Shown here: piece after piece, positions 4,566-50,809 of the stretch
Layout: each line of letters begins with the position of its first letter
How positions within the stretch are numbered: the stretch's first letter is position 1
Assembly: GCA_020284085.1 (NCBI GenBank)
Contig: JACEVL010000967.1
Span: forward strand, 17,501-81,500
Direction of reading: 5' to 3'
DNA: 64,000 nt
Origin: Aporrectodea caliginosa
Lineage: Eukaryota; Annelida; Clitellata; Crassiclitellata; Lumbricidae
Notes under the pieces: generated by a model
The model's input: the letters and a program-made list of their open reading frames with translations, nothing else
The model's database searches: none
Told to the model about the DNA's origin: nothing
Position numbers and translations under genes: made by a program

Positions 4566-5319
4566 CTAAGTGAGCGAGCTCCTACGCCGAAAGCAGGCGG
4601 ACTCCTTCCGATACTCAACGGCCTCCTGCGTCAACCGTCTCTTGCTGACCGTCAACGTGAAGCTGTAGATCGGCTGCGACGGTGAGTAGCTGTTCCGGTT
4701 ACGGCGATGGAGATGGCACTCCTGCACGATCCTCAGCAGCTGCCGACGGAACCTGCGCCCGAACAGGTAGTAGGGAACAAAGTTTATGGATGAGTTGACG
4801 ACGACCAGAAGCGATCCCACTTCGTTGAGGGCGTACAGAGTGATGCGCTTGAAGACCAGCTGTGGTTCGTCGACGAAGGCCCAGACGACCCGCGAGATGA
4901 GCGCCGGAGTCTGACAGATGAAGAAGACGACGACTACGCTGATGAGCATGACCGTCGTGTCGATTCTTCGGCGCATGATGGCGCTGATCTCCCGCGCGCG
5001 CCGACTGGACAGACGGACGGCCTGGATGAGGAACGCGTTAAGGACGGCCAGCGCTGCGAAGGGTAGACCGCAGACGAAGACCAGGTAGAGCCAGGAGTGG
5101 TAGAGCTGGCGGAACAGCTTCGTCCGACCGAAGTGGGTCAGGTCGAAGCTGACGCGAACGGTTCCGAGCATCGGGTGAACGATCCGAACCGTTCGGTACT
5201 CGAAGAACTTGGGCAGATTGAAGAGAACGCTGATAAGGTAGAGCATCAGTACGACTTTCCTCGCCCGACTGATCGTACAGAAACGCTCCGATTGAAAGGG
5301 ATGACAGATGACGATGTAT
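4566..5319 (-). CDS. FMRFamide-receptor-like GPCR, exon 2 (DRY to C-terminus)
   Basis: Second coding exon of a class A (rhodopsin-family) neuropeptide GPCR, predicted to sit in the plasma membrane and signal through G proteins. It starts after TTATCTTTCCAG and supplies one base completing the Arg of DRY. It then reads RYIVICHPF and CTISRARKVV (ICL2), TM4 with FNLPKFFEY (about 190-206 of the joined 416-residue protein), TM5 (243-267), TM6 (286-311) with CQTP in place of CWxP, TM7 (325-352) with NFVPYY in place of NPxxY, and an Arg/Ser-rich tail ending at a TGA-type stop. CTISRARKV and NLPKFFEY are characteristic of FMRFamide-receptor-like proteins. The ATG at 5246 is an internal Met, not the start. 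The phase matches exon 1 exactly. The ligand cannot be told from sequence. The first ~28 exon bases are copied in the tandem array upstream. Confidence 0.92.
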
Positions 5320-5830
5320 CTGGAAAGATAACAGATGCAAACTTAAAGGGATGACAGATGACGATGTATCTGGAAAGATAACAGATGCAAACTGAAAGGG
5401 ATGACAGATGACGATGTATCTGGAAAGATAACAGATGCAAACTGAAATGGATGACAGATGACGATTTGTCTAGAAAGATAACAGATGCAAACTGAAAGGG
5501 ATGACAGATGACGATGCATCTGGAAAGATAACAGATGCAAACTGAAAGGGATGACAGATGACTATGTGTCTGGAAAGATAACAGATGCAAACTGAAAGGG
5601 ATGACAGATGACGATGTATCTGGAAAGATAATAGATGCAAACTGAAATGGATGACAGATGACGATGTATCTGGAAAGATAACAGATGCAAACTTAAAGGG
5701 ATGACAGATGACGATGTATCCTGAAAGATAACAGATGCAAACTGAAAGGGATGACAGATGACGATGTATCTGGAAAGATAACAGATGCAAACTGAAAGGA
5801 ATGACAGATGACGATGTATCTGGAAAGATC
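5291..5830 (-). repeat. 50-bp tandem array copying the exon 2 splice acceptor and exon start
   Basis: Eleven head-to-tail units, each exactly 50 bp. On the minus strand each unit is a 3' splice-site sequence (TTATCTTTCCAG) followed by about 27 bases encoding YIVICHPF, then TTTGCATCTG leading into the next. Acceptor AGs pair with plus-strand positions 5320, 5370, 5420, 5470, 5520, 5570, 5620, 5670, 5720 (shifted one base by a variant), 5770 and 5820. The unit ending at 5291 is the real intron/exon 2 boundary of the GPCR. Few substitutions separate the units, so expansion is recent or homogenised. Because 50 is not a multiple of three, the three reading frames of the array encode one cyclic peptide and give spurious ORFs. 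Confidence 0.95.
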
Positions 5831-6382
5831 ACAGAGTCAGTCAATCAATCATTCTTTTTTAAATAATACAACAGTAAAATACATTACGATGTATATCTGC
5901 AGGCGCCTTAAAGGGAACTCTTGATAGATTAAATAACAAAGTTTATGAACGGAGAGTCATTAAGGGATGTGGCAATGTGCTAGATATGACTTATCCATAT
6001 GATCTTAGCCAACGCAAATGTTGAGGTGCAATCAATTGAATCAAATGTGATGTATGTTTGTATTGGCGTTTATTACAAAGTTTTGTTGTCAGAACGCAAC
6101 AATTGACAATAATTAAAGTATATGAGAAATGTTGCCGATAACGTCAAATTATTACGAAGTCGAAGACGGGACAGTAAACAGGTAACAGATATATCCATAC
6201 AGGAAATGCCGATAATGATTCATAATTATTATTCTGTGATTACAATAAATAATGAAGCCGATGTGTATAACTGTACAGATACCAATACATGTATCACTTA
6301 ATATAACGTCTTCAAAGTGTCTCTCACAGTGCTAGTGCTGCAGTATGCCCTAAGTGTGAATTATATATGTCAGGAAAGGTTA
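5831..6382. other. Intronic, AT-rich, nothing recognised
   Basis: AT-rich single-copy-looking sequence with no gene or repeat seen. Confidence 0.5.
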
Positions 6383-6943
6383 GGTCAGTTTTTACGTGCT
6401 CTTCACCTGGCTTCGTTCTGAGAAAACGCAAACATATCTATCTGTTGAATTTTTCATGATTTAGTTTTCCACGTCTCTTAGTAAAGCACCTACTTTCTTG
6501 TAAAGGCAGTACACGTTTAGATACACGAATCCATAAAACATAATGAGTGGTATTAAATTTTACTACATGATGTTATTATTGTCCATTTCGACTTGGTTTG
6601 CAGTGCATGAATCTCCTGAATGATTTGTCAGAAGAAGGTAATTAGTACAGAACCAATTTCACACTTAATCTAGTTGTCATTCGATGTGGTGATATTTCAG
6701 GTCAGGTCAGTTTTTGTGCCCTTCACCCCGTTCTTACGGCAATGATATTCTTTTGAAGTTTTTATGGTTTAGTTTCCCCAGGAGCACCTACTGTCTTGTA
6801 AAGGCAGTACGTTTAGACAACATAAATATAAAAAAATGAGTATTAAATTTTATTACATTATGTCATCATTGTTATTTCGACTTGGTTGCAGTGCATGAAT
6901 TCCTGAATGTTCAGAAGAAGGTAATTAGTACAAGCAATTTCGC
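6383..6943. repeat. Two-copy tandem duplication (~320-bp offset)
   Basis: 6383-6655 and 6705-6943 match throughout. Shared blocks include CACCTACTNTCTTGTAAAGG, a CATTTCGACTTGG-like block and the end AGAAGAAGGTAATTAGTACA. The second copy has many small deletions, so the duplication is old. Confidence 0.8.
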
Positions 6944-8344
6944 CGGAGGATGCACACTGCTCCGTAAATAGCCATGTCGCGAAGACTGCAAAGTGCTCTA
7001 ATGGACCCCTGTTTCTTTTCCAGTCGCTGGAGGACATATGGCTGAATAATTTAGAAGATGTTTCGTTCCATAATTATATCAACGATTTTATGGCTTCAAC
7101 CAAGGTTATCTATCAGAAGCAGTTCAAATTAATTATTTCCGACATAGATTACTCGTCACCTGCCAAGTCCGTTAAATCCGCATCGCGTCCGTTTTGTTCA
7201 GGATAGGGCAACACATGTCACTCATTTTTATATGGCTGGTCTTTCGCAGCGGATAAAGTTGTCAAAGGCGTCTTGGGTGAAATGCAAAACAGGAATTGGT
7301 CGATACAAAACCATAGCTCGAGGATTATAACACCATACCAAATTATCAGCTTGAGATAGGAGCTCGAGGTCTGCAGTCTTCTGTTATAAAGTGTATGCAT
7401 TACATTTTGTTAAATAAATGATTTTCCAAGATTACTGAACTTAGATATCGGTCCCTAATCTAATTTGACCAGATCCCATCCGTATTGTTTAAATCTATTT
7501 CAACCGAATTCCGTTCAATCCGATCTAAATCAATCCAATATATATCTCGAAATAATTTAATCTAATATAATCTAGTCTAGTATAGAAGTAAAAAGGCCAA
7601 ATTGTCTACGCGCGCTCTATATAAATTCCCGGAAATTGTAGTCTCAAGGTCGAAGGATCTATTGAGTGAAAAACTCCGCCACTGTTCGTACCATGACAGT
7701 GCCAGTCCCAATTCCTGGAAAAAGGAGGAGGTCGACGCTAATGATTTTAGTGATTACCACACATTGTCGTTAAACTGAAACTATTACTATTGACTGAGAC
7801 GCAAACACGACAGAAGAAATCCTGCTAACAGGGCGCCGTTTAAAATTCAAACCTCCACCTAAGCGATAAAGGAGCTACAAAAACAAATCGAGCATTACCC
7901 CGCATTACATCGGCGTCTATAGTCCACACAGTCCGCACAGGATTTAAGAATCAATGCGGGTGGACGAGAAACGTAAGGGGTTTGCAGTCAGATCGTGGGG
8001 TGAATTCAGATCGGATTTACGCGTATTCTGTTGGACGCATTGGAACCGGAAACCAATTTAATAAGCAACTGGCGGCGCTAGATGTCGCCAGTGCGCCACG
8101 AAAATCTCCTTCGTGTTCGGAATCGATCATCATCGGTTGTAAGAGGAGGAAGCAGGTGACGATGCATAATCCCTTCATCAATCATTGTGTCTATCCAATC
8201 ACATCCGTGTCTTCCTTCTCACATCCTCCTTCGTCATTCCTCACACGCTCACCCTCTCCCTCTTCCTGTACACTAATCACTCTCAGTCTGCTCAATGCTT
8301 TCACTCTACAATTGCTAGTATTAGCGACTTCTTCTACTTCACCA
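6944..8344. other. Intronic, nothing recognised
   Basis: No homologous ORF. ATCCAATCYRATC-like runs at 7480-7580 are AT-rich and slightly repetitive. Nothing else supported. Confidence 0.5.
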
Positions 8345-8426
8345 TTATTACCCACTTAGAGCGCTGCTGAGTTTGAGCGGCGGTATATAAATGTTCGATT
8401 GCAATTACAATTACAATTACTTCAAG
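8345..8426 (+). mobile_element. LINE/SINE 3' end with (CAATTA)n tail
   Basis: A short stem (AGCGCT ... AGCGGC) precedes GGCGGTATATAAATG (8379-8393) and then ATTGCAATTACAATTACAATTAC. This is the same 3' architecture as the LINE ending at 49706 on the opposite strand. Confidence 0.7.
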
Positions 8427-8835
8427 GGTAAAACTACTACTACGTTCTTGCATCGCTTCTTCCGAGTGTTTCTTCTCTTCTTCTCCTGTTTTTACTCCTC
8501 CGCTGCTTCACCATCTCCTCTGTCTCATTATTCTTTTGTTCTTCTACATCCTTCTCTTGCTCTGCATTTTTCGTTTCTCAACTCTCCTCCTCCTCTTCCT
8601 TTTCCCTTTTCTTCCTTTGTTCGCTTCTTCCAATTCCTTTTATCTATCTTGCTACTCCTCTGCCTTCCTCTCTTAATAGTCGTCTTCCTCACTCTTTTCC
8701 TTCCCTTTCCCTTCTGCCTACCTCTCCTCTTCCTCCTTTTCTTGATATTCCTGTCTCTCCTACTCCGCTTCCTCCTCTTCTTTCTCCTATTCTTGTCCCT
8801 ACTCCGTATCTTCCTCCTCTATCATGCATCCACTG
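8427..8835. repeat. Long polypyrimidine tract
   Basis: Degenerate CTT/CCTC-rich sequence; the 156-codon plus-strand ORF over it is Leu/Phe/Ser low-complexity without any domain and is judged spurious. Confidence 0.8.
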
Positions 8836-9290
8836 CTGCAGACTGCAACGGAGCGTGTTGACTTCATCTTCGTCTTTGGTGTTGATTGCATCCGTTATGC
8901 CATTTAATGCAAGTTCCTCTCTCTCTGTCTTTCAGTTTGCCTGCTTGACTGTGTGCTTGTCTGTCTGGCTGTCTCCTGCATAGAGCAAACACGAAATCGA
9001 CCTCTGTCACTCTATCATCGAGCTCTTATAGCCCCCACTTTTGTTACCAGACATGCAGACCCGTAATTATGAGTGGGTGTCACACGAGCCACAGAACAGG
9101 ATCGTGTAACAGAAACGTGCAGCAGGCAGATGCACCAGTCTGTTCGTATGTGTGTATCTCTGTAACCTTTTCTACTCTGTATTCTCTTCTCTGTCCGTCG
9201 TTATGCTTGTGTGTGTTATCTTCTATTTCGTCGATCCATTGGTCCACGAGTCTGTTGCTCATTTACGTTGGTCTCTATAGGTGTCCGTTG
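8836..9290. other. Intronic, nothing recognised
   Basis: CTGT-flavoured sequence with no gene seen. Confidence 0.5.
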
Positions 9291-9376
9291 GTCCATATAT
9301 TATTTTTACTTGCACGGGTCCATGAGTTTATGGGTCCATATATTATTTTTACTTGCACGGGTCCATGAGTTTATGG
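9291..9376. repeat. 43-bp direct tandem duplication
   Basis: Two identical copies beginning GTCCATATATTATTTTTACT with period 43, and the first bases of a third copy. Confidence 0.9.
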
Positions 9377-10084
9377 GTCCAATATGTCCTCTATCAGTTT
9401 GTCCATGCGTTTGTGAGTTTATTGATCAGTGGGGTTCGTTGGTCGATGAGGTCTTCTGCATTATTGGTCCGTTGATATACAATGAAGCGCTGGTCCGTTG
9501 GTGAGTCAATATGCCAATCGGTCAGTCGAGTGATTGTGGTCGATGACAGACGGCGTTTGCAAGAGGCACTCGACAGTCAACACCCGATGAACCACGGCCT
9601 GAAAATAAGCAGGCGCGTTATTGCTGCACACTCTGACCCCTTCGGACGACGGGTGAATGCAAACTGAATAGAGTCCCACATCAAATGACAGCTAGATTAT
9701 CGTAAAATTGGTTCCACTTCCAATCTCCGCTTTCCAGAGGTGCCTCGGAATTGCTGCTGCCTTGGAACTCGCTAAGCCTTTCGGCTTTTGCGAAATGGCG
9801 TAGCGAATTCTCTTCGCTGACACGAATACGATATCAACTGGACAACGATTGCAACAAACGTGGCACCGTGAATTCGACAACATTATACAGTTTTAAAGCC
9901 AGCACGTCAGCAATATAATTGTACACGCTGTAATCGCTTCATATTGCAATTGAGGCAATACAGTTATGAAAAACATTTTTTTATTAATTTTATTCATTCT
10001 GTTTTTGTCTGTTGGAATTTGTGGAGCATTCATGACGAAGACAATCATGTCTGGTTTCTCGTCTTAATTGCTTATCCACAATAG
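9377..10084. other. Intronic, nothing recognised
   Basis: Short ORFs only, without recognisable domains. Confidence 0.5.
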
Positions 10085-10216
10085 GTTACCTCTCTGTCTT
10101 ACGGACTGATCTTCTGGATATTGAACGGATAACAGCGTGATTTTGGTGCGTCATCGGTAGCTGCCTTGTGCACTACGCTCCAGCTCGATTGAAGCTACTA
10201 ATTAATAATAATAATT
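10085..10216 (+). mobile_element. LINE 3'-UTR fragment
   Basis: CTGTCTTACGGACTGATCTT and TTTTGGTGCGTCATCGGTAG match the 3' part of the LINE at 58825-59232, and the fragment ends in GAAGCTACTAATTA followed by an (AAT)n run. Only the untranslated end survives. Confidence 0.7.
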
Positions 10217-10416
10217 AACTTCAAGAGAAAGTGCTGCGATCCGACTACTCTAATCTGGACCCATCTGCTTTAGTAGGATAATTTAAGTAGGATTTCACTG
10301 TTCTCTAGGACAACTTAAGGAAGTTCATTCTTTCTCTTTCTTTATTTTAACAGTGAATGGTCATTTTGTTAAAGACGGACTTGAAGGAGGTTACTTCAAA
10401 GAATAGCCTTGTCTTA

Positions 10417-10600
10417 AGTTAACCCCGAGAGACAGCAATGGTATGAAGTGTTAGCGACTTCATCTTTCTCTGTCTCGGCTCATGGAGGCGGATGGCCAAT
10501 GATCAGTTCTCTCGCTCACCACCTGGTCTTCGGTATGATAAGGTGAAACATCTTTCTACCAAAGCGTGGATTTGACCCTCACCTTCTGGGTTGAAGGTCC
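10417..10600 (+). repeat. Dispersed repeat shared with 63175-63420
   Basis: GGTATGAAGTGTTAGCGACT and CTCGGCTCATGGAGGCGGAT align with GGTGTGAGATGTTAACGACT and CTCGGCATATGAAGGCGTTT near 63190-63245. Identity is unknown; it may belong to a LINE 3' region. Confidence 0.6.
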
Positions 10601-12200
10601 ACTACGTTAAACACTAGTCTATTGCACAGAAATTAATTGAACATTTTCATTGCAAACAGTGGAACATTATTGTAACTCATCTCTTAAAAATTTCGGTCCC
10701 AACATTCGTTTATTTGTAGGCTTCCAGGCTTTGAGCCGAGATCTACCCTTGGTAGGTTCTACATGTTTGATACAATCAGTGACTCGACCTCTTGTTTTCA
10801 AAGTGGTATCAAAACTAACCGGACTGACTTGACTAAGCCCCGGCGAATAAGCTGGTCTCCCAAAGTGGTCTTTGTGTGGCGATAAGAGACTGTGGAGAGA
10901 AACATTTATGATTACACCATAATTAAAACTCCTTCTTGTTTAACCCCGTGTGCATATCGCTATGGCAATGTATCTGGTTCCTCGAGAACAGAAATCATCG
11001 AAGGCATCCTTCATCTTCTTGATGTGTATCCGTTACAATCATTTGCTTACTACACCAGACTCCGGCTTCTTCAAGAGTTTACGTTGGTCACCATCAATTT
11101 GCAATTATTCTTTAAAAATTCCAATTTTCTTTCAAGTCTGTCTATGGATTCTGTATTTCTAGGCCATTCGCCGTATTAAATGCTAATAGATTTCTGAAGC
11201 TTCGATCTGTTTCTAGACCGGAGATTGCTATGTAGGCCATGGATACACTATGCACTTGTTTAACTACGATTGAAAAATGTCATCTTTCCTGAGACTGGGC
11301 TGTGAGTGTTATGAGTAAATACCTCTAATGGTCGCCACAATAAATTTACCGAATGAATGAACGAACGTCTAAGTTAATGAATCTTTCAAGCTCAGCCTTT
11401 GATCGTGGCTGAGCTTGAATGGCTTCAGTGTAGATATTCTGAATTAATGCTATAAAAAGAATGAATGAGCGAACGAACGAATGAACGAACGAGAGATTGA
11501 ATGAATAGATGAATTTCTTTGGGAGCTAATTCTTGAAGAGGCGCTATATAATTATGGTGAACTGCGGCCGATTGGTTTGAGCGATCTGTCTGTAATGTGT
11601 AGACTATACGGGTTCGAACATCCACAGAGACGGTCACTGTCAAAGGACCTTGATCAAGTCCGTCACGGGCAATTCCTCAGAGTCACCGACGTTTTATCGT
11701 ATGGTCGTAAGTGCACTTCTGAACTTTGGAAGGAGGGCATTATCGAATACAGTTGCGTTGTATTATTACTGCAGTGTACAGAATTTTGTTGAATGAAAGA
11801 ATTTAGTGTGAAATGCGGCAAAGGTTGTGAAATGCAGTGTAATAATTATGACATCCTCTCTGCGACACGGAAACTCCGTCGGTTGAGAGGAATCCTTTGT
11901 TACATTCGCAGACAAAGGTTCAACGTGTCGAACGCAGAGCAGAATCGTGGTACTTGTAAGCTCAAGCGCGTTTCGAGTTGCCCGCGGAACGAGGTATAGC
12001 TGTCGAGAGTTTTATCAGATGATGCTGTCGAACGATGCTTATTATCGGACGAGTCCAATCGCATCGACAATTATTATTGACGGTTCTTTGAAGTCCGTTA
12101 AAGAAGATCTTTTGTTTTGCATGAAATGAATCGCGCGTTTTGAGCGCTAGAATATATATGTCGTGTTAGACACATTTGCAAACGACTCCGACTTTATACG
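10601..12200. other. Intronic, mostly nothing recognised
   Basis: No gene seen. GAAGAGGCGCTATATAATTATG at 11535-11556 is a retroelement-tail motif, and GAATGAACGAACG-type runs occur at 11350 and 11460-11510. Confidence 0.5.
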
Positions 12201-12220
12201 ACACTAACTACACATATCAT

Positions 12221-12233
12221 AATGATGACGATA

Positions 12234-12294
<61 letters not shown>

Positions 12295-12395
12295 CGATGA
12301 CGATGACGACGATGGTGATGATGATGACGATGATAATGACGATGATGATGACGACGATGATGACTGATAATAATGTGATAATGATGATGATGACT
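12221..12395. repeat. (GAT)n trinucleotide microsatellite
   Basis: Long ATG/GAT/GAC run giving poly-Asp, poly-Met and poly-Ile/His shadow ORFs in different frames. Not a gene. Confidence 0.95.
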
Positions 12396-13000
12396 ATGCT
12401 TATGTTGACGACGATCACCATGACGATTATGACAACAGTTACATGGATGTAGAGGTGGAATCAAGGAGTGACTTCCGGTTAGAGACATTCGAGAGGTAAG
12501 AGCGAAATGCATGGGGCAAATGTAATTCTTGAGGAGTACAAAACCCGCCATCGATGTAAGCTAGGTTACTTTTCCTACCCCCACAAACCCTTCCATCCCA
12601 ACACAGCCAGGATTGCAGAATAATGGAGAGGAGCAGTTGAACACGAGATGGAAAAAGAAAAGAGCGAGAGGGGTAACAGCAAAACCAAGATCACAATAAT
12701 CGGTGTTTACACGCAGAGCGTGACCTATGACATCATCTGCAATCGTAGGCCTAATCTCAATTGTAACCTAAAATTAAAATTTTACAGAGTGCTAATGAAG
12801 TGCTAGTGTTTCTCAAGGATTTGGACTCGATCCTCCAAACTTCCTGATTGCGATTTATAATCTAAAGGTTCTCCATGCGGACAACTGACTATTTAAGTAT
12901 GCTTATGATTGTTACTTGGTTGTCCCAGCATCTGGAGTTTTTACTACCGAATTCTAACTCACTCATATTGCACTATGGTCTAAAAACTGCAACTTACGTT
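12396..13000. other. Intronic, nothing recognised
   Basis: No supported feature apart from a TAGGCCTA at 12746-12753. Confidence 0.5.
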
Positions 13001-13004
13001 TAAA

Positions 13005-13205
13005 TAGCCTACTAGTAAGTCCTGTGAAATTATTTTAACCCGTCCCCATTCCCGAACTGATGTCACAATCCCACCAATTATTGCTGCGATTAAACGTGTA
13101 ACCGAACTCAAAATCCTGGGTGTTACCCTTTCTGATAGAATCGGATTCTCCCTGCATATGAATAATAAATGCTGCAGCTCTAAACAGTCTTTTTTGCATT
13201 GGGCG
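13005..13205 (+). mobile_element. LINE reverse transcriptase fragment
   Basis: One frame reads IKRVTELKILGVTLSD, then FSLHMNN, then CCSSKQSF, matching the thumb-proximal LGVTLD...F..H segment of jockey/CR1-type reverse transcriptases. Flanking frames are broken; a dead fragment of a few dozen codons. Confidence 0.75.
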
Positions 13206-14957
13206 TTGGGGTGGCTCGTGGGCTTACCCGTAATCCTCTATTATGACTTACATGTATAGTACGCTCGAGCGTTGTTGCTGGAATGGTGCATTCCTCTCGT
13301 GTTTGGTGGGGATTCGCTAATTTGGGAGAGCGAGAGATCAAGAGGAGATTCGAGTCCTGTTGTAAGAAGAGCAGAGACAGAGAGAAGGAGACATGTTGCT
13401 GTGTGTATTCATGTATGTATTATTATCTCTATGTATATATATATATATAACCTAGCGAACATACATCTGCATCTCAGAGTGAGATTTACTGACATTGTGC
13501 GCGAAATAAGTGCATTAAATAATTAAATAAAGAAAAATATAAAAATAACAGGCAAGAGTAATCTAGTCTAATGACCAATCTGCCAATCTAATGAAGAGTA
13601 GCAGACAAGTCGAGACTTCACGTGATGAAGAAAATAAAGAATCTTTGTTTGCGTGACGTAAATACGAAGAAATCTGCGTCATCGGGCCTTTAAGTCCAGA
13701 TTTATGGCTACCTAATGTGCCTGTCAGTCTGTTTGTTTGTCCTTCTGTCTGTATATGTGTCTCGATTGGTCTGTCGATCTGTCTACAGGAAGTGATTGTA
13801 CCTTAATGCGATGACAATGACACAGGCCACGTCTGCTATGACAAGCAGTTACGGACATAATGTATGGGTGATCGCTCCACGAAAGGAGAGAATCCAGGAA
13901 AGGAACTAGAGAGGGAGGGTAGGAGTGGGATTAAACGAGGGAGGGACGGATGACACGAGGAGGGAGAGAACAAGCGGGGAGGAGAGTTGGAAAAAAGGGG
14001 AGAAGGGTTGAAGGCAGGAACGACGGAGGGAGTATCTTGCGATAAAGCATGATAGCATGGTCGTTTGTCGAAGGCGGAGGGTGATCTGTAAGATTCTAGA
14101 AAAGCAGAGCAGGTATAGCCTACTCTACCATTGTCCATGGAGCAGAGAATTTCAGTGTGGACAGAGAGAAGAGCTCTCCGTGGACTGGAATTTGCTACAG
14201 AACAGTGAGAAGTAACGATTCTAAAGACAGTTGCACATCCAGTCGACTTTAAGGAACACGTTCAAGCAATTTAGAAATAAAATTCATGTTCTAGATTTCT
14301 TTGTCGTTTGACATATTAAAGATGGCTACTTCAACGAAGACTATTGCACTTGAGACACAGTCATGATGCGAAGGATTTCTCAGCAAGCGATCGACTGATT
14401 AATGCCGAGATCGTGGTTGCAAGCACGCAAAATAAGTGAGTTGGAAAATTGCGTCTTGGAGGCATTCTTTATGAGGAGACGAGAGAAAACCGGTGACCGA
14501 ATTCACGAAGCGATCGCCCGATAAAAAAGAAAAAGACACCCTGATGAAAAGAAGAGAGACTGACAAGAACCAGCGAGGTATAGACAAACTGATAGACGGA
14601 CAAAGAAGATCTACTTATGTGAATACGAACACAGTCAGTCAAGCAAACAAACAGAGAGAAAAACAGGACGGCAGACTGACATACATACAAAGAAGATATA
14701 AGTAAGTGAATACGAAGATAGACACCCAAACAGACAGAGAGTCTAGCAGGAAGGCAGGCTGAGAGACAGACATTCAGATAGATACCAAGACAGGCAGGCA
14801 GACAGACTTACAAGCCAGCAGGCAGATGAAGAGGCAGGCAAGCGGAGTAGAAACGACAATTACCCCTGATGAAACCTGGCAAACGCAATTAATTGGAACA
14901 AAGACACGCAATTAAAGAGAATTATAGGAAGAAAGCAGTGACGGATGAATACATGAT
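13206..14957. other. Intronic, nothing but simple repeats
   Basis: A short (TA)n at 13434-13449, CTGT units near 13720-13780, purine-rich GGGAGGA sequence at 13900-14030 and GACA-rich sequence at 14560-14860. No gene. Confidence 0.55.
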
Positions 14958-15795
14958 TTGATGGATGGATGGATGGATGGATGGATGGATGGATGGATGG
15001 ATGGATGGATGGATGGATGGATGGATGGATGGATGGATGGATGGATGGATGGATGGATGGATGGATGGATGGATGGATGGATGGATGGATGGATGGATGG
15101 ATGGATGGATGGATGGATGGATGGATGGATGGATGGATGGATGGATGGATGGATGGATGGATGGATGGATGGATGGATGGATGGATAGATGGATGGATGG
15201 ATGGATGGATGGATGGGATGGATGGATGGATGGATGGATGAATATGGATGGATGGATGGATGGATGGAAGGATGGATGGATGGATGGATGGAAGAAATGG
15301 ATGGATGGATGGATGGAAAGATGGATGGATGATGGATGATGGACGGATGGATGGATGGATCGATGGATGGATGGATGGATTGATGGATGGATGGATTTGG
15401 AAAGACTGATCTTGGATGGATGGATGGATGGATGGAAGGATGGATGGAAAGATGGATGGAAGATGGATGGATAAATAAAATAGATAGATGATAGATAGAT
15501 AGATAGATGTAGGATGGATGGATGGATGATGGATGGATGGATGGATGGATGGATGGATGGATGGATAGATGGATGGATGGATGGATGGATGGATGGATGG
15601 ATATGGATGGATTGATGGATTGATGGATGGATGGATGGATGGATATGGATGGATGGATGTATATGATGGATGGATGGATGGATGGATGGATGGATGGATG
15701 GATGAATGGATGGATATTACATGGATGGATGGATGGATGGATATGGATGATGGATATGGATGGATGGATGGATGGATGGATGGATGGATGGAAGG
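14958..15795. repeat. (GGAT)n / ATGG satellite, ~840 bp
   Basis: Pure GGAT tetranucleotide from about 14959 to 15185, then a degenerate part to 15795 with GATA, GAAA and ATATGG interruptions. Translated shadows are MDGW and IHPS repeats. Confidence 0.97.
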
Positions 15796-16544
15796 ACGAG
15801 TAAATGGAACGAAAGATGGAGGAAGCGATGAATTGGAGAATAAAACGAAGGAAAAAAGAAGTGAAGAAAGTAATTAATGCACGCAAACAGGAAGGAATGG
15901 AAGGGATGAAGAAGAAGAGATGAAATCAGGAATTAAACATTTAAGTGGATAAGTTTGTAAGCAATGAAAGAAATAAAGAAGTAGCCTGCATGTATGGAAA
16001 GAAGGAAGGAATGGAGGAATGAAGAAACGAAAAAAAGAAAGAATGAACGAATGAATGACCACCTGTATGAATGAGTGGAAGGACAGAAAGAAAAAGCAAA
16101 CATATGAATAAATAGGCGATGTCGGCGTTTTTTGAGGTACTGAAAATGCGCTATATTAAGTGTCCTGATTCATGCATGCATACATACATACATACAGCTA
16201 TAAGTAACAGTGAAACATACTCTGAATGTTATGCATATGGTTTAGTTACTGATATAAAAGTGCTGGTTGCATTACACTGCCGCGACCGACCGACCGCGCG
16301 ACTGTGGTCAGAGTTTATTCGTCTTCTTTTTCTTTTCGGCGGATTATTTTATCTAAGTGCAGAATTTGTTCCACAATTCCCAACATGTTGAAGTATTCTG
16401 TTGCTAATTTACTTTGCGGAATTATTCTTTATTTCAGCTGCGGAGTTTGTACCGTTTGGTCGATACTTTCTAGTGTATCATCTTGTCCCACGTGATTTCC
16501 TGAGTAGGGATGGATTTCTTGACGCGCGGTCGAATCTAAAGGAT
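15796..16544. other. Intronic, purine-rich then nothing recognised
   Basis: GAAGGAATG-type purine sequence to about 16110, then TGCGCTATATTAAGTGTC (16147-16164), a retroelement-tail variant also seen near 62767. No gene. Confidence 0.5.
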
Positions 16545-17040
16545 CCACGGTCGTTTGAGGATAATTATCCTCTCAACAGAGGAGAATATTGGTCTTTGGA
16601 GTGACGTCGACCGTTTGTCATTGGTGACGCTTCGATGCACCGACCGACATTGGACTAATGTCTGTTCTACGTGCACGCGGTGGTTCGAGGAGAGCAGCAC
16701 GTGCTCTCTCTCTTCTACCAACGAGAGACTTCTGGACGGTGGCGTTTTCGTGTGCAGCGGATGGTACTGCGTGTCGTCACTCCGCACAATTGACGCAGGT
16801 TCGGAGACTTTAAACGGGATGCTACCTGTCAACTTTGAAAGGGAATCTGTCAGTTGGGTTCCACGTGTGTGCGTGGTCCCTCCACTGATGACTCTTCTAG
16901 TTTTCTTTATATTGTTTTGTTACTGTAGAAATTTCCTTTCTTCATGACATTTGACGTCATTTAGGCTAGCTTTGAGAGCACACCTGGTTAGTGTTTTGTA
17001 AAGTAGGTTAGCACTTTATAAATGTCTAATTACAATTTAT
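16545..17040 (+). mobile_element. Dispersed repeat R1, copy A
   Basis: Homologous along its length to the minus-strand copy at 21765-22235 and, for its 3' half, to 18555-18768. Landmarks: GACGTCGACCGTTTGTCATTGG, here split as GACGTCGACCG and TTTGTCATTGG; TTCGGAGACTTTAAAC; GGGTTCCACGTGTGTGCGTG; and the tail TAGCACTTTATAAATGTC followed by AATTACAATTTA. The 130-codon ORF over it is not supported as a host gene. Probably a non-autonomous retroelement or LINE 3' region. Confidence 0.7.
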
Positions 17041-17109
17041 TAGAGTTAAGTGACGACGGAAATGAGCTGGCTGAGAAGCATAAAGGGCAAGAGCTTTAAC
17101 GGTAGGATT

Positions 17110-17440
17110 TGAAATCAGGTGACTAAAGAGAGCTGGGACAGACGGATACATTTTCGATAGAATAAGGAAAAAAGGCTAAAGTGGCTGGGACATGTGATGA
17201 GAATGGGCAATGACAGATTACCATCGATGGCTTTACACGGATATGTGGAAAGAACTAGGAGTAGAGGAAGACAACAAAAGACATGGATGGATAATAAAGG
17301 ATCTGGAGAGAATGAAGATGAACATTGCAGAAGCAAAGGAACAAATCAAGGAGAGAGAATTCTGGAGACGACAGGTTGAGGACTCATCGTTGGCCTTGGC
17401 CTGACGGAGGAGAAACAAAGAAGAAAGAAGAAGAGTTAAG
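17110..17440 (+). mobile_element. LINE C-terminal fragment, frameshifted
   Basis: KRLKWLGHVMRM, then RTRSRGRQQKTWMD in one frame, continuing after a frameshift near 17290 as WRRQVEDSSLALA with a DGGE-like end and a GAAGAAAGAAGAAG tail. This is the C-terminal RLKWLGHV..RGR..TW.D block of a non-LTR retrotransposon polymerase, a different family from the copy at 49706-50809. Confidence 0.8.
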
Positions 17441-18035
17441 TATAATTATATTGACTTATAAAACGTGGCAATTATAAGAGAGGCCCTGCAGCATGCACCG
17501 GATGATCCCTACAAAGTTGTCTTAATGAAGGCATACCACGTTCTAACACAGATGCCTTGTAAGGCTGAAATTAATTTGGACTCAATGCCCTGTCTCATTT
17601 TCTCTTACCTGAAATACATTTGTATAATGGGTGTGCTGATACAGGTATAACGTATTGAGTGCTAGACGCAGGTATAGGGAAAGGCATGCCAAGCATACGT
17701 TATTTGACCCATCGGATTTCGATTGGGCTTTTATGATGTCGTGGTATTTGACTAAGCTCACATTTAAAGCTACACATTCACCAATGCTTCGTGTATTATC
17801 GACAACGTCAGATTAGATTAACAATAAAGAAAAAGTAAACTCAAATGTAAAGAAAGGTGTACGTAACTAATCTACTAAGTAAGGTGTGCTAAACGTAAGT
17901 TTTTTAAAGAAAGGTTTGTTAAACGAATCTGTGAAGAAAATAAATTAGGCGTAGTCGTAAACATCTAATCTGTTCTAAAGACTTATATAGCGCCGTTATC
18001 ATGATGTCCATGACCTCAGTTAGATTTGAGTAGCA
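17441..18035. other. Intronic, nothing recognised
   Basis: No gene. A reverse-oriented tail motif ACTTATATAGCGCC lies at 17981-17994. Confidence 0.5.
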
Positions 18036-18262
18036 ATCAGACTAATCTGGTCTTCACCTTAAGAGAGTAATCTTGGGCCCTTCCACGTGGAATGACCTTC
18101 CTCCCTCAATCCGTAGTACGATTTTAGTAGGGGTTCCACCCTTATCCTTTCGTTGCTTGAAGACACGGATTTCCTCGGGCTGTCACGCTGAGAGCGCCTC
18201 TGAACAGCTAGTACTGTAAGAGGCGCTTTACAAATTCTCAGATACGATACTATAATCTACGA
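18036..18262 (+). mobile_element. LINE C-terminus and 3' hairpin
   Basis: GGCCCTTCCACGTGGAATGA starts a frame reading GPSTWNDLPPSIR, the conserved C-terminal GPS.WN.LP..+R block of LINE polymerases. It is followed by an AGCGCCTC ... GAGGCGCT stem and TTTACAAATTCTCAG. Confidence 0.75.
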
Positions 18263-18554
18263 GAAATCGAAATATAAATTTAAATCGAGAGTCATAGCTT
18301 AAGCCATTGGAGAAGCTAAGCTGAACTGCGACAGATCGGATCTTCAGGGTTATGATGTCTTCTTAAAGTGAGCTTTTTAGTAGCCTAGCGTACAAATCCG
18401 TCCAACTTTAGCTCCAACTTTTGGCATTATATCTGTGTAGTTGTAGAGGCAAAGTTCTTAACGTATATGACAAGTATAATGTGTCTGTGTTCTTCTGCCA
18501 TAAAAGTTTGTACTGTTAAAAGGTATTATCAACTCTGAACATCCTTGCCATTTT

Positions 18555-18768
18555 AAGCTGTCGACGGGAATCCGTTGATTGGTTCCACGTCTGTGCGTGA
18601 ACCCGCCACTAGTGACTCAGCTTACTCTGCATTGTTTTCATACGGTAACTGATGTAATATATTCTTTCGTAATGACATTTAAATCAATTTTATACTGTAC
18701 GCTAACGCAGAGTAGATATCTTGAACGGGCGCTATATAAATGTTTAGTTACATTACATTACATGACAG
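18555..18768 (+). mobile_element. Dispersed repeat R1, copy B (3' half)
   Basis: TTGGTTCCACGTCTGTGCGT, CACTAGTGACTCAGCTTACT, TAGATATCTTGAACGG, then GGCGCTATATAAATG (18728-18742) and a TTACATTACATTACA tail. Matches copies A and C. Confidence 0.75.
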
Positions 18769-19047
18769 CTCAATATATCAGTCCAAATACATGCATTCAT
18801 GCTTACACATGATGTACCGTACTTTCATTATTCACAATTCAATCTTTCTCTTATTACTGTGGCTTGGAACCGCTTTGAACCGTTACTCTAGTGTTTGTGA
18901 CTGCAGAAGTGGACCGCTGCCGAAATGACCGGCTGGCAGTTATCACTCCATCTTTAGCAAGTATATCCCCAGTGCTAAGCGCAGATACAGAGAAGGTGTT
19001 CTAAATAAACTAAGGTATAAATAAAGATGTAATTCCGGAATTACTAC

Positions 19048-19544
19048 CTGTCCACGGTGAAAGCCAGTGTCAGCCAGATGGACGTGACCTGGAGCGTATA
19101 AGCCGCCGGATGGACGTACTGAAACAGGTAGGGATACAATCCGCCGACATCCCACATCATATCTGTCTCCGTATCGAGCTGCGGCTTCTTCAAGTCCTTT
19201 GTCGTAAGAAGAATGAAGCAGAGGAGGAACGCCGTATCGCAGACTGCCAGCGCCGACAAATAGGTGTACGTCGACGACTGCATGGCCTTTCTGGTCAGCA
19301 CGATGAGCGATAGGGTGTTGCCGACCAGTCCGAGGCAGCTGACCGTCAGACCGGCCACTCCACTGACGTAGTACGTTATGAGGTCACGCGTGTACTGCGC
19401 CAGGTCGCCATGACGACCCGACAGAAGAAGGTCGAGTACGGCCGAGCACTGCGTCCAGTTTCTATGGTTACCGACGTCATCGTGGCTGACGTTCGAGGCG
19501 CCGCTGAAGTTGAAGCGGAACAGACAGGGCTCGAATGCTTCCAT
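19048..19544 (-). CDS. FMRFamide-receptor-like GPCR, exon 1 (N-terminus to DRY)
   Basis: First coding exon, 165 codons plus two bases, starting at an ATG with a good context (A at -3, G at +4); an in-frame stop lies upstream. It encodes an extracellular N-terminus with three N-glycosylation sequons (NFS 12, NVS 18, NWT 29), TM1 (about 56-83, with the conserved GN at 75-76), TM2 (92-114, LAVCD with Asp103) and TM3 (138-165) ending LTLAFTVD. The last two bases, AG, are followed by donor GTAGTA; exon 2 begins with A and makes Arg166 of DRY. TM3 wording VTSIWLTLAFTVDRY is typical of FMRFamide-receptor-like GPCRs. Read alone this exon would stop at an in-frame TAG right after DR, so splicing is required. 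An upstream untranslated exon cannot be excluded. Confidence 0.92.
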
Positions 19545-21110
19545 TGTTACGTCACTAGCACGGGAAATTCCAGCTTGACCTAGTTATGTGAAAGTAAAAA
19601 TGTATGCGTGAATCGCCAAGATTTCTCAGCACTACAAGAAAGTTGTATCAGAGGATCAACTTAATTACCGCATCTTAGTTGAAAAAAAGTCCACGAGAAC
19701 CAGGTTGTTACACTAGTTTCAAGGTCAAATCAATTCTCACCTAATCTAATTAATTGTATAGAGCAACTGTAAGTGATCAAGGTATCAAATGGTGGGGGTT
19801 AAAGTTGAAAATTATCGTAATCCGTGAAGGAAGACCGGTGGAAATTCAAAAGGTCTGAGAAACCACAAGTCGGCCTTCGGTGGATAAACAGGAGAACTAA
19901 ATGAATGTTTGTCTTACATCTGAATTACGATAGAGAATAGACAGAGAGCAGAACAAGGCAATGAATTCAAAAACTTTGGACCAGCCGCCTGTGCTGGTTC
20001 GAGGCTCAACAAAACTGATTACAATTGACACAGAAGAACTAAGCAAGTCTCAGGTTACGATGAAAGCAAGATGATGAAAGAACTGCTGATGTAAGTGAGT
20101 AAGTAAGTATATGCACGTCTTTTAAATGATGATTAACATTACAGCTAGTCAGAGAATGATTAAAGATTTAAACGGACAGGAAAACTTAAATAGATACGTA
20201 CCAAAACCAGTACGAGGAACAGTGCGTCCGAAGTTTTCACCACACCGAATATCCGATAACTCCATCAGTGATGAAATATTGAGCGCCTATAATAATAGGG
20301 AAAAGCCACCCACGTTGGAAACCCAAACCATTTATAAAAATGTTGCCCAACGATCTAACTTAAGACAACGTAATGTGACGTGCAATCTCCAGTAAAGAAA
20401 AGATGAAACTAGGAACAAGTACAAAATCAAAACAAATGAAAACATAACAACACGAAATAGGAAAAGAACTCACACTAGAAAACGAACGATAAGTGTACAA
20501 CAAGGAGTTTAAACACTGCAAGAATAAAACGAACTTCACGATGATCAACAATTAGACGGCAACGGTGATACCAGCTAATTAATTACTCGACTATAATAAT
20601 GAAGACGACGACAGCGAGAACAACAATTGTAACAACAACGCTCACCTGAAGAGAAGCTGATGAAGCGCAAAGCACCTGATACGATACAGAAGCATATTAT
20701 GCTAGGTGGCAAATGCACTCGGCTGAGTATCTCGTCTCTATCCTCTGCAGTTATTCAACGTGACGTTACTCTCAGCTTTCACCAAATGATTCCGTCTTAG
20801 GGCAAATGTCAGAACGAACCGTAGTAATTACTTTTGACATTTCTGTCGAACTATCGATGCATTATCGAAGCGCAATCTCCCGCCGGGCAAATTCCGCCTT
20901 CGAGTCTCCCTAGGGAGAGCGTCAGAAAGCAGGCAGCGCCTATTTAGCTGCAGGGCGTTAAAGTCTGCGGCACGTCAAACATTGACGGCGTCACCTGAAC
21001 GAAAGACTCATTCGGTTGGCAAGCATCGTTGTTAGCGGCGCTGTTGCTTCGGTTGCTTGCAGAGACGCGTCAACGTCTATAGCCGCATTGGCCGAGGAAG
21101 CTGCATAGCC
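19545..21110. other. Upstream of GPCR, nothing recognised
   Basis: Would contain the GPCR promoter, but no TATA box or other element stands out. A weak tRNA-like patch near 19625 and an 89-codon ORF at 20126-20395 without recognisable features are not counted as genes. Confidence 0.45.
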
Positions 21111-30095: not shown

Positions 30096-30500
30096 AATAC
30101 GCACTCCCCGGAAAAAAAGACTCCGGGAGTGTTTTTATCCTAGTATATAATGACTGCAGAGTCAATCGATATCAGGACAAAATACTCCACCCTGCGAATA
30201 AACACTACGGAAGTGTTTTCGTTTGAGATGGGATGGGACCAAGAATCAACTCCCCCATTCATTTTGTCACTGGAAGAATCAACTCCGCAAGTCATTTGAT
30301 CCTAGGAAGAATCAACTCGTCATTCCATTTGTCCTAGGAAGAATCAACTCCAGTGGAGTTTCTACTCACCACCAGGAGTGTTTTAGTCCTAGTAACAATG
30401 CAGGCCTCTGGTCAATTAGTCCTGGTAAGAATTAACTTCACCAGTCAATATATCCTGGGATACATATACTTCGGAGTGTTTATAAGGGAGAGTCTACTCA
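30096..30500. repeat. Degenerate ~30-35-bp tandem repeat
   Basis: AAGAATCAACTC recurs at about 30240, 30274, 30307 and 30340 and as AAGAATTAACTTC at 30427. It is interleaved with GTCCTAGGA/ATCCTAGG and GGAGTGTTTT blocks, the latter also before 30240. Old, diverged array. Confidence 0.65.
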
Positions 30501-36937: not shown

Positions 36938-38146
36938 TTACATAGAATAGGTTGTGAATGCAACAGTGAAATTCTGAAGGATAGTTTCGGTTGTGGTTTC
37001 AGTGGAGGTTTGTTGGGTACCGTCAGGAATTAGCGTCATAAGGGCCATGACTATAAAGCCGATGGCAGCCCCCGTGACCTTCCCGATGCTCGTGTCGTGT
37101 GGATTGATTTCCTCCTGGAGAATCTCGAAGAAGGTCACGAAGATGAAGGTTCCGCAGGCAAACGCTTGGATGATTCCGTTGGCCATGTCGAGCGCGGTGC
37201 TCGTCGCACCAACCTCGGACATGATCATCCCGACGGCCACTCCGATCGGCATGATGATGCTGCAACAGAAGGAAGTGACTATCATACGTCTGAGCGAGTA
37301 CTTACATTTGACGAACTGTAGTCCAAGACTGAAGCTGATGATCATCTCGTGGCTCATGAGGGCAATGAGGAGGGTGAAGACCCGTTGAACGGTGGTCTGC
37401 AGACCGAGTGAAAGACCTTCGAAGATGTGGTGCATAGAAAGAGCGATGATGAGGACCAAGGACCTCACATCGTGGTGACTGGCTCCGGCGGCTGCGTGTT
37501 CGTGCATGGAGTGGCTGTCGTTGGATTCCAGATCCTTGATATTCGATAAGTCGTGTTTCTGTTCTGCATCAGGCGACGAAGGCTTTTCTTCGATGGCTAG
37601 ATCGCTGCAACTGTCAGATCCAGCGTCTTCGATTTCCTTGACATGAATAGCAATTCGTGACCATGCGACGAACTCTCCGTTGTCACCCTGAAGAGCTTCG
37701 TTGACCTGCCCCCCGACACACGGCTTGCCCTCTCTACAGCATCTGCAGACATGTGCACATTGTTTACTTTGAAATGCGATGCAGTTCTGCTGAGTCTTCA
37801 ACGCCTTCTTCTGCATTCGTCTTTTGTTGATGCGCATCACGATCTTCTCCAGGTACAGAACGAAGAAGAATCCGAGTCCAATGATCAGATCAGTCACCGG
37901 ATAGAGGATCTCGTTCGGGTCGAGGAGTGTCGTGTCCAGGATGTACCTCACTTCCGGTGCCATGTGCAGGAGGAACGTTCCAAAGAAGATGCCGCCTCCA
38001 AAGCACATCAGGTAGCACATCCAGCGTTCACCTTTCGCACCTTTGCTGATGATCCACGGTGAGACCCAAAAAGGAAGAATGGTCAGGACGAACGGAATCA
38101 CCAGCGTCACGATCAGACCGATCAACTTCGCCTCCCATCTTTCCAT
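36938..38146 (-). CDS. ZIP-family zinc transporter (SLC39A1/2/3-like)
   Basis: A 402-residue uninterrupted ORF for a divalent-metal importer of the ZIP family, subfamily II, predicted in the plasma or an internal membrane and moving Zn2+ into the cytosol. Eight hydrophobic segments: about 8-28, 45-62, 83-103, 228-250, 255-278, 288-309, 322-341 and 356-373. Signatures: LSMHHIFEGLSLGLQ (236-250, HHxFEG in TM4) and LMSHEMIISFSLGLQ (263-277, HEM in TM5), which together line the metal site. The long TM3-TM4 loop has a His-rich stretch (HSMHEH...SHH, 212-225) as in other ZIPs, and an unusual cysteine cluster at 130-143 (C130, C134, C136, C137, C143). The start ATG has A at -3 and G at +4, and length fits the family. 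The absence of coding introns contrasts with the GPCR. A retrogene is possible but cannot be shown. Confidence 0.95.
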   Translation of the reverse strand: MERWEAKLIGLIVTLVIPFVLTILPFWVSPWIISKGAKGERWMCYLMCFGGGIFFGTFLLHMAPEVRYILDTTLLDPNEILYPVTDLIIGLGFFFVLYLEKIVMRINKRRMQKKALKTQQNCIAFQSKQCAHVCRCCREGKPCVGGQVNEALQGDNGEFVAWSRIAIHVKEIEDAGSDSCSDLAIEEKPSSPDAEQKHDLSNIKDLESNDSHSMHEHAAAGASHHDVRSLVLIIALSMHHIFEGLSLGLQTTVQRVFTLLIALMSHEMIISFSLGLQFVKCKYSLRRMIVTSFCCSIIMPIGVAVGMIMSEVGATSTALDMANGIIQAFACGTFIFVTFFEILQEEINPHDTSIGKVTGAAIGFIVMALMTLIPDGTQQTSTETTTETILQNFTVAFTTYSM

Positions 38147-38240
38147 TCTGACGGCGTCTGCTCTTTCCCTCCTTTGGCTTTTCGAGGCACCTGATGCTTA
38201 CAACGAACCGTCCTGAACTGTGAAAGGAATAAAGATCCAT

Positions 38241-41845: not shown

Positions 41846-42411
41846 TGAAGGGGGGCGGGTGGTGGAGGGAAGAGTGTTTTAAGGGGCAAAGCTTTGAATT
41901 GTTGGCAAGGGGACTAATGAGGGTGCCGAAAGCAACCTATCACATCACCCTCAGTACTAGCTCCCGCGATTAAGGGTCTGGCGTGGATCACAACAACCGC
42001 CAACACTTTTGGAAGTATTTGACATGATATGGAGACTGTACAGTTGGTAACGTTCTGGGATCCGTTTTCAGCTATATCTAAACGTTTATTTCAACAGAAA
42101 ACTGCCAACAGTTTCAATGTTTATATATATTTTAAATTTTTCAGGCTGTCTTGACTAGTTTGGGTTCAAATAAAACTGTGGAAAAAATCATAGCCATTCA
42201 TTGTTAAAAACTGAGATATTAGTTTTGTAAATGCCCCTTTGCCCCTCACTTCTGGAAACAAATCATAGCCATTCATTGTTAAAAACTAAGATCTTAGTTT
42301 TGCAAATGCCCCTTTGCCCCTCACTTCCGGAAAAAATCATAGCCATTCATTGTTAAAAACTAAGATCTTAGTTTTGCAAATGCCCCTTTGCCCCTCACTT
42401 CCGGACGCCCA
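41846..42411 (+). mobile_element. Repeat R2, plus copy, with 74-bp tandem triplication
   Basis: Homologous to the inverted copy at 43737-44228: GCAACCTATCACATCAC, TTCTGGGATCCGTTTTCAGC and ATAAAACTGTGGAAAAAATC are shared. The 3' end is three 74-bp units beginning ATCATAGCCATTCATTGTTA at 42188, 42262 and 42336. It ends GGACGCCCATGG, roughly inverse to the TGGGCGTCC start of the other copy, suggesting terminal inverted repeats. Confidence 0.75.
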
Positions 42412-46227: not shown

Positions 46228-47074
46228 ACTTGATTATTACTTATCCACATGGTCCCTTATGAAAAGTAAAAGGGTTCCGCGTATCATTTACATGAGACCA
46301 TCCAGGATTTATTCCGGCCTGCATACATACACTGCGCAAGCATCATCTTGTACATATCTGGCACCCTGGCACATTTTTACTGGTTTCGAATCATACTTTG
46401 ATGGTCAGTGTTACTCAATATGGAAATAGGAATGAGAAATGGGCGACCCTGCCAGCGGAACAAATTGTTCCTTTTCGGTTTACCCATTGACACCCATGAA
46501 CTACTGCAGCAAGTGAACATGGACTCGCATTTGGTGATCAATAAAGCTCATGAAGTGAATTGACAAAAATTAATATATTCAATTATTCATGCATTTAATC
46601 TGGTCAGAATATGCGTCGTTAGCTGAGTTTAGTCAGGCCAAAGCAATTATAGCAGAATTGTGTCTATTTGCACATGTTGCTGCAGCGACCGTATGAGCTC
46701 GACCATGCTCATTATTCAATGAATTTATAGGGTGACATCCCTCACCATCGGATGGGTGCCACGCCAATTAGGGTTTTGTGGACCATAGTGCTAGCCTGAG
46801 ATTCAAAATCTGAAACAAGCCGCGATTGCTGTGCGAACCGGCCTCCTTTGTGACCTCACGCCCATAGGTGTCTTCAAGTAGGCTTTAACCAATGTAGATA
46901 GCCAGGACAGTTAATCATCCTTTCTCATGCAAAATTAATTACTGAAGACAGCTTTCTTCGAGCCGCTGAAAATTTAATTAATCAGGTGTACCGGCACCTT
47001 TCAATCTGAAGTATCTACAAATAACTGATAATAGGGATGTTATTAATGATGCATCAGATCTTTAATTATATTTT
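46228..47074. other. Nothing recognised
   Basis: No gene or repeat seen. Confidence 0.5.
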
Positions 47075-47255
47075 TTTCGTCACTCCATTGTTCGACGTCT
47101 CTATCTATGACGTAACGGATCTGTTGGCCTGATTATATTCTTCGTCACTCCATTGTTCGACGTCTCTATCTATGACGTAACGGATCTGTTGGCCTGATTA
47201 TATTCTTCGTCACTCCATTGTTCGACGTCTCTTTCTATGACGTAACGTATCCTTA
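47075..47255 (+). repeat. 65-bp tandem repeat carrying CRE-like sites
   Basis: Three units with CACTCCATTGTTCGACGTCT starting at 47081, 47146 and 47211. Each has TGACGTAA (47108, 47173, 47238), a CRE/ATF-like octamer. Diverged relatives lie at 48370-48665. Confidence 0.9.
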
Positions 47256-49705: not shown

Positions 49706-50809
49706 GAATTGTAATTGTAATTGTAATTGTAATTGAACATTTGTATAGCGCCACTCAGAGATTCAGAGGCGCTCCCGACCCAGGGCTCTAACAAATAAGA
49801 TAGTCTTCAGGCGTTTCCGAAACAGAGGAAGGGAAAGGCTGAGGAGCTCAAGACGCAATTCATGCGGAAGATGGTTCCAAGTAGACGGGCCGACATAGGC
49901 AAAGCTTCTGGATTGAGCTGTTGCACCACGCATGCGGGGGACAACCAGAAGGCCTCTGGTGGCAGAGCGCAGAGCAGAGCGACCAGGAAGTGTAGAAACC
50001 GATGTGCATAAGGCCTGAAGGTATGAAGGAGCTACCCTGAGCAGAGAGTTGCGCATAAGTGTAAGAATTTTGAATTGAATGCGCTGGGGCACAGGAAGCC
50101 AGTGAAGAGTTTCCCGAATGAAGGTAGATATGTGAGAGTACTTTGGGAGACCACAGATAAGGCGGGCGCAGGCGTTAAGAATGGACTGAAGCTTGGAGAG
50201 GTTTAATGAAGAGAGACCGGCAAAGATGGAGTTGCCGAAGTCAACCCTTGTACAGATCAGTGCATGGACGAGAGTGTTGACCGCGTGAGGAGAGAGTGAG
50301 TGACGGATGGTGCGAATTTGGCGTAGATGATAAAGGCATGTTCGAGAGATGCGATTGCAATGGTCTGAAAATGAGAGAACTGGATCCAGGCTAACGCCCA
50401 GATCCCGAACTGAGACAGAGTAGTGGACGTGTGGGAAAGTAGTGCGGAGAAATTCCATGTCAATCTTGGCTAGTTGGGCTCTACCGCCAAGCCAGATGAA
50501 TTGAGTTTTGTCTGAGTTAAGGCGGAGACGGTTAGAAGACATCCAAAGGTCCAGCGTCGTGGTGGCCTCAAGGACCCTCACGACCAGTGAAGCAGCTGTG
50601 CTGGCTGGACCATGAGCAAAGGCTTGGGTGTCATCGGCGTACTGATGAGCCGAGACCCCCTTGAGAGTGAGTATGTCTGAAAGGTCGGCGGTGTAGAGAA
50701 TGTAGAGGAGTGGTGCCAGGACTGAACCTTGGGGCAAACCGTATGGAATAAAAGTCCAGGGAGAGAATGCCAGCTTTCCATCATCATAATATATGTTGCT
50801 GACATCATT
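49706..50809 (-). mobile_element. 5'-truncated non-LTR retrotransposon (LINE family 1)
   Basis: A minus-strand element whose 5' limit lies between about 50765 and the in-frame TGA just above 50809. It ends in a short 3' UTR: an AGCGCC...GGCGCT stem (about 49749-49773), TATACAAATG, then four to five CAATTA units (49706-49737). 5' truncation with an intact 3' end is the usual product of target-primed reverse transcription. Its 3' signature is repeated across the window. Confidence 0.9.
49763..50809 (-). pseudogene. LINE reverse transcriptase, C-terminal two thirds of RT domain
   Basis: Polymerase remnant that would have copied the element's RNA into DNA. The open frame reads FIPYGLPQGSVLAPLLY (motif 4), HQYADDTQAF (catalytic YADD), SSNRLRLNSDKTQFIWLG, VRDLGVSLD...FSDH, the VNTLVHALI..RVDFGNSIFAGL block, LHWLPVPQRIQFKIL, and the C-terminal YVGPSTWNHLPHELR to a stop. 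The frame is intact for about 349 codons, so the copy is young, but the endonuclease and fingers are missing. The TTG at 50737 is only internal. Closest in pattern to jockey/CR1-group pol proteins. Confidence 0.92.

Follow-up and report, generated by a model that had tools for sequence, protein, structure and literature searches.

How is a transcript spliced when its 3' splice site, together with the start of the exon behind it, is present in eleven tandem copies? The question is raised by a receptor gene on the minus strand of the window, the whole 64,000-nucleotide stretch of Aporrectodea caliginosa DNA analyzed here. The gene is made up as follows.

19048..19544, minus strand: coding part of exon 1, from the N-terminus to the DR of the DRY motif, with the donor GTAGTA from 19047
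5320..19047, minus strand: intron of 13,728 nt at DR/Y, placed by the exon join
4566..5319, minus strand: exon 2, from TM4 to the C-terminus, with the stop codon at 4568-4566

Exon 1 ends in GACAG (donor AG/GTAGTA), and joining 19048 to 5319 across this phase 2 intron restores DRY and gives an open receptor frame of 416 aa. In Pfam, the product matches PF00001 7tm_1 with 91.3 bits (cut-off 30.5) and PF10324 Srw with 66.1 bits (cut-off 22.2), and its best match among solved structures is neuromedin-U receptor 2 (E 5.6e-15). Judged by the 7tm_1 score above the cut-off and the DRY motif at the end of TM3, the receptor is a class A (rhodopsin) GPCR. GPCR introns at the DR/Y position are described for other animals in an excerpt of PMC3151243. 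Homology is continuous across the DR/Y junction, and this, together with the reading frame, makes 5319 the presumed acceptor in use. A pyrimidine-rich stretch ending in CTAG lies 5' of the ATG (about 19579-19600, minus strand) and may be the acceptor of an exon in the 5' untranslated region, and the intron holds a GATG microsatellite of about 212 copies (14960-15796). Elsewhere on the minus strand of the window are an uninterrupted 419-aa open frame matching ZIP zinc transporters (36938-38197; PF02535, 174.1 bits) and a 348-aa open frame with a partial reverse transcriptase match (49763-50809; PF00078, 43.9 bits), which is probably a retroelement fragment.

The repeated units occupy the last part of the intron and the first part of exon 2.

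5293..5842, minus strand: array of eleven 50-bp units, from TRF and the unit register; k=0 adjoins the exon and k=10 is outermost
5293..5342, minus strand: unit k=0, the presumed true 3' splice site, with the intron end at 5320 and the exon 2 start at 5319
5693..5742, minus strand: unit k=8, in which CCAG has become CAGG, placing the AG one base upstream (TTTCAGG)
5793..5842, minus strand: unit k=10, the outermost copy, with about 43 nt in common with the other units and a different first 7 nt

Read from 5842 to 5293, the minus strand consists of exactly eleven head-to-tail units in one register, and TRF run on the window reports 5293-5835 with period 50, 10.9 copies, 94% matches and 0% indels. 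A 20-nt core with at most 3 mismatches is found 11 times in the window vs 0.00 expected (100 shuffles). An earlier note on this DNA had described eleven tandem 50-bp copies of a GPCR intron/exon boundary, and these results confirm it. Each unit comprises about 23 nt of acceptor side and 27 nt of exon-2-like sequence, namely GTTTGCATCTGTTATCTTTCCAG and then 27 nt reading ATACATCGTCATCTGTCATCCCTTTCA. Every unit contains a pyrimidine tract and an AG or near-AG, followed by 27 nt that resemble the start of exon 2, and the exon-like parts begin at 5319, 5369 and so on to 5819 in 50-nt steps. With head-to-tail, near-identical units within the range of roughly 10-100 bp (50 bp, 10.9 copies, 94%), the array is a minisatellite, and it carries a splice site per unit that is an acceptor and not a donor. 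By inspection, the consensus unit contains no GTRAG donor. The eleven copies were counted in one assembly, at one locus.

Several details of the earlier description need refinement. The AG is at the exact position in 10 of the 11 units, the exception being the shifted AG of k=8, around which the spacing of the primary AGs is 49 or 51 nt instead of 50; and the eleven AGs it counted are half of the 22 present from 5819 to 5319. YIVICHPF is encoded exactly by 7/11 units and not, as had been said, by all: k=3 reads QIVICHPF, k=4 CIVICHPF, k=5 HIVICHPF and k=10 YIVICHSF. Near-identity likewise holds for k=0 to k=9, which differ by a mean of 2.44 of 50 positions in pairwise comparison, but not for the outermost unit, where about 43 of the 50 nt are shared.

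The outermost unit is informative about how the array arose. Unit k=10 matches the others, with one mismatch on each side of the AG, over the 16 nt that lead up to it and the 27 nt that follow, and its first 7 nt are GACTGAC where 10/10 of the units k=0 to k=9 have GTTTGCA. This linker is absent from k=10 and, on the same strand, from the non-array sequence within 3 kb of the junction in both directions. Because it is the same in all ten units and absent from k=10 and the flanks, one founding event is indicated. The arrangement suggests that a 43-nt piece (16 nt of acceptor and 27 nt of exon) and a 7-nt linker formed a single founding duplication that was then amplified in register. Alternatively, the linker and the k=10 flank could have diverged from one another, as 3/7 of their letters agree. 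The two halves of the unit, acceptor and exon, are similar in sequence (score reached by 113/5000 shuffles), which perhaps weakly hints at a templated linker. Within the scope of these tests, a viral, mobile or satellite origin was rejected: the exon-like part is the gene's own exon, and one genome search gave a single true locus. Further minisatellites are found by TRF in the same window at 30241-30351, 42180-42405 (74 bp x 3.0, 96%), 47069-47251 (65 bp x 2.8, 96%) and 61993-62433 (22 bp x 20, 90%). With minisatellites this common, some will fall on junctions.

The array was compared with its own genome (1,097,852,775 bases, 4544 contigs) and gave two matches, namely itself and a 67% match on contig C850; the latter was rejected as a second array, since it is a CTGTCAT simple repeat. 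Hence, no other such array appears in one search of the 1.098-Gb genome, a search that skips very common words, so that uniqueness is unproved. A protein search for paralogues in the same genome returned at least 106 matches, and 100 of 664 candidates were scored. Among the matches listed, four loci have a clear acceptor at DR/Y. C330 also has an exon 1, at the far side of a 5439-nt intron, and the exon 1 of C784 lies about 0.6 kb upstream. C397a and C397b are a near-identical pair with no exon 1 within roughly 9 kb upstream; here we infer an intron because an acceptor is present and the frame is lost. TRF finds no tandem repeat at the junction of any of the four: at C397a/b the nearest entries, simple AAT/TTA repeats, stop about 50-70 nt short of the junction on its upstream side, and those at C330 and C784 are further off. 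Since C330, C397a, C397b and C784 have a single acceptor without an array, the array was gained in the window gene. Two other paralogues, C1052 and C192, are single open frames without an intron at this place. The C397 pair (also labeled L028 and L029) comprises near-identical copies of a GPCR exon 2 on one contig, about 280 kb apart, each with an AAT repeat just upstream of its acceptor, and a cluster of related GPCR genes with at least 8 receptor-like matches lies on C654 at 10985-112315.

What would follow from the use of each AG can be read from the frames. The 22 AGs from 5819 to 5319 comprise eleven primary ones, ten second ones that follow the exon-like part (TTTCAG in 8, TTTAAG in 2) and a single one at 5561. 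The whole 416-aa receptor results from 5319 only. The other 21 of 22 give truncations of 172-306 aa, with stops at 5695, 5564, 5472, 5345, 5248 or 5040. As the in-frame choices k=3, 6 and 9 are stopped too, the present array yields no longer receptor isoform, just post-TM3 truncations. The proposal that the most exon-proximal unit is the actual acceptor thus gains from 5319 being the sole AG that gives a whole receptor, in addition to the homology across the junction; both point to its probable use.

Acceptor strength was scored with a simple matrix of base frequencies and ranked among the 782 AGs of the intron. By this measure k=0, 1, 2, 4, 5, 7 and 9 all score 4.97 (ranks 11-17), in agreement with the idea of near-equal candidate acceptors. 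The shifted AG of k=8 has the top score of the array (6.0, rank 6), k=10 scores 3.40 (rank 30), and some AGs elsewhere in the intron outscore k=0. The predicted branch points are distributed less evenly.

5836..5848, minus strand: three overlapping yTnAy branch-point-like motifs (A at 5845, 5841 and 5837), predicted by motif scan

These three predicted branch points adjoin the copied piece on its upstream side, and the motif scan finds 0 yTnAy inside the array, where there are rTnAy motifs only. At the four paralogue junctions (C330, C784, C397a/b), the exon is preceded by a yTnAy at 29-42 nt; in the window gene, k=0 has none within 80 nt and k=10 has three at 18-26 nt. This pattern is not significant because yTnAy is so common in the intron: such a motif is present in 39.7% of intron windows of 32 nt, and 42.5% of 50-nt units would lack it. 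By the rule described in PMC1431707, splicing takes the first AG that lies no less than 12-15 nt beyond the branch point. The first AG downstream of the motifs at 5845, 5841 and 5837 is that of k=10, 17-25 nt away, and under this rule k=10 would therefore be chosen, giving a 207-aa product. The full receptor would then need a branch point within the array. A candidate is the rTnAy motif GTCAT, located 32 nt before the next CCAG with an intervening AG at 10 nt. Given that distance, and if the AG at 10 nt is bypassed, each unit may serve its neighbor and the true acceptor may be used well. Taken together, the upstream motifs that would choose k=10 and the need of the full receptor for an in-array branch point lead us to expect mixed acceptor use and a lowered yield of full receptor. 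RNA folding was considered as well. The 550-nt array is predicted to fold more stably than its shuffled versions (z -4.58). Every AG is covered by a 5-bp hairpin, computed at -3.5 kcal/mol for one 30-mer; in k=3 it is weaker (-2.2), as in k=5 (-2.1), and in k=4 it is stronger (-5.9). A special RNA structure of the array was set aside, as this small hairpin repeated eleven times explains the z value.

We favor, with a probability of roughly 0.6, the reading in which a young minisatellite of neutral origin spans the junction and acts as an accidental, length-dependent attenuator of receptor output. The GPCR gene, which looks functional, would have undergone one tandem duplication spanning its intron/exon junction, followed by in-register amplification, presumably through slippage or unequal exchange. 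The eleven near-equal acceptors would then compete, with the consensus-like branch points left behind at the far end. Because the last acceptor alone gives a whole receptor, part of the transcripts would end as truncated TM1-TM3 proteins. Thus, the array probably splits the acceptor choice and lowers receptor output, and any effect on splicing would be a by-product. The sequence itself shows the anatomy, the single hit in the genome, the lack of an array in four paralogues and the coding outcome of each AG; which acceptors are used and how array length matters are predicted from it.

The same origin might have left a silent passenger, in which the exon-proximal acceptor is nearly always used, for instance through exon definition and in-array branch points. 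This is possible, if tentative. The GTCAT motifs lie at a workable distance from each acceptor, the receptor is intact, and minisatellites abound in the window. Against it, seven units have equal scores and the consensus-like branch points lie at a distance of 500 nt, so that something further would be required for the last acceptor to be used exclusively.

With each added unit, the distance between the productive acceptor and the consensus-like branch points would grow by 50 nt and one more dead-end AG would be gained, so a self-expanding ladder of acceptors could be a hypervariable heritable dial, the amount of full receptor relative to TM1-TM3 fragment being set by how long the array is. 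We regard this as rather unlikely. That the array is a selected switch or rheostat, kept to set receptor dose or to make interfering TM1-TM3 fragments, is quite unlikely. It could draw on the truncations that follow from all AGs besides 5319 and on the consensus unit, which is free of stops in three frames. Moreover, the truncated transcripts might escape nonsense-mediated decay if the 3' UTR is intronless, because their stops fall either within the array or within exon 2, which is the final coding exon. However, stop-free units are not rare, as 531/2000 shuffles and 14.6% of random intron 50-mers are also stop-free. Nor do the splice-site letters show excess conservation: among k=1-9, substitutions do not avoid the splice-site part (4/207 acceptor-side vs 9/243 exon-side cells, p=0.40), and this comparison reveals no selection on AG or coding letters. 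The Y of DRY is altered in 3/10 extra copies (Q, C and H in k=3, 4 and 5), and one AG has moved. The array was found in one gene only by the genome search, and four paralogues do without it. The decoy, rheostat or switch that had been proposed in the earlier note is thus favored by none of these tests.

It is very unlikely that nearly all splicing is diverted and that the receptor is becoming a pseudogene, tolerated thanks to its paralogues. The first-AG rule with far branch points does predict k=10, and close intact paralogues exist (C1052, C192 and C330, about 51-55% identity). But the 416-aa frame is open and 0/18 of the columns invariant in 17 paralogues are broken, a weak test because 12/18 sequences break none, and the roughly 5% mean divergence among copies would, as a rough estimate, have left time for decay had the gene been unused. 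Finally, tandem repeats are frequently mis-sized in assemblies, but a false array or a wrong copy number is scarcely credible here, where individual units can be told apart by their variants and the contig, 336 kb long, has unique sequence on both sides of the array.

The nearest published case, by our comparison, is the VNTR in intron 18 of ABCA7, for which an excerpt of PMC5954066 gives a 25-bp unit and 23.7 copies in the human reference. The first two bases of that unit are the exon 18 donor, retention of one unit leads to an out-of-frame transcript, and array length correlates with exon 19 skipping and expression (PMC5954066). Both arrays consist of short tandem units at an exon edge with a splice signal in each, but ABCA7 multiplies the donor GT and the window array the acceptor, and the ABCA7 unit starts at the intron edge whereas the window unit includes 27 nt of coding exon. 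The minisatellite of IFI6 (6-16), with multiple splice donors (Turri 1995, as cited in excerpts of PMC4526556 and PMC3618361), likewise supplies several alternative splice sites in one gene, again on the donor side and not the acceptor side. Unlike both, the window array multiplies a 3' splice site. In FAM20C, a tandem repeat across an intron-exon junction is said to affect alternative splicing. NAGNAG tandem acceptors also compete as neighbors (PMC3250501, excerpt), but they are spaced by 3 nt, compared to 50 nt and eleven copies here, and the array is not one of them. Intron gain in potato RdRp (PMC4974935, excerpt) shares the tandem duplication touching splice signals; there a new intron was made, whereas in the window none is evident and the unit is without a GTRAG donor. 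The prawn lectin family combines coding tandem repeats with alternative acceptors, but the acceptors are not multiplied (PMC7536079). In open-licence PMC papers queried with fixed terms, no array multiplying an acceptor and the start of its exon was found. The statement that no such case is described should be narrowed, since VNTRs that multiply a donor (ABCA7, IFI6) or cross an intron-exon junction (FAM20C) have been published. As read from the unit, what is new here is a splice-site repeat on the acceptor side instead of the donor side, with coding sequence within the unit.

The locus thus offers an acceptor-side counterpart to the donor-side ABCA7 VNTR. It amounts to a natural experiment on splice choice: the acceptors are identical, they recur every 50 nt, motifs resembling branch points stand at one end, and a single outcome is productive. 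From junction reads one could learn how the spliceosome chooses among equal acceptors at rising distance, a question for which minigenes are usually built. For the receptor family, the array indicates that a conserved GPCR intron position can carry a length-variable risk to receptor output. If array length does act as a heritable dial, receptor dose could evolve fast with promoter and protein untouched.
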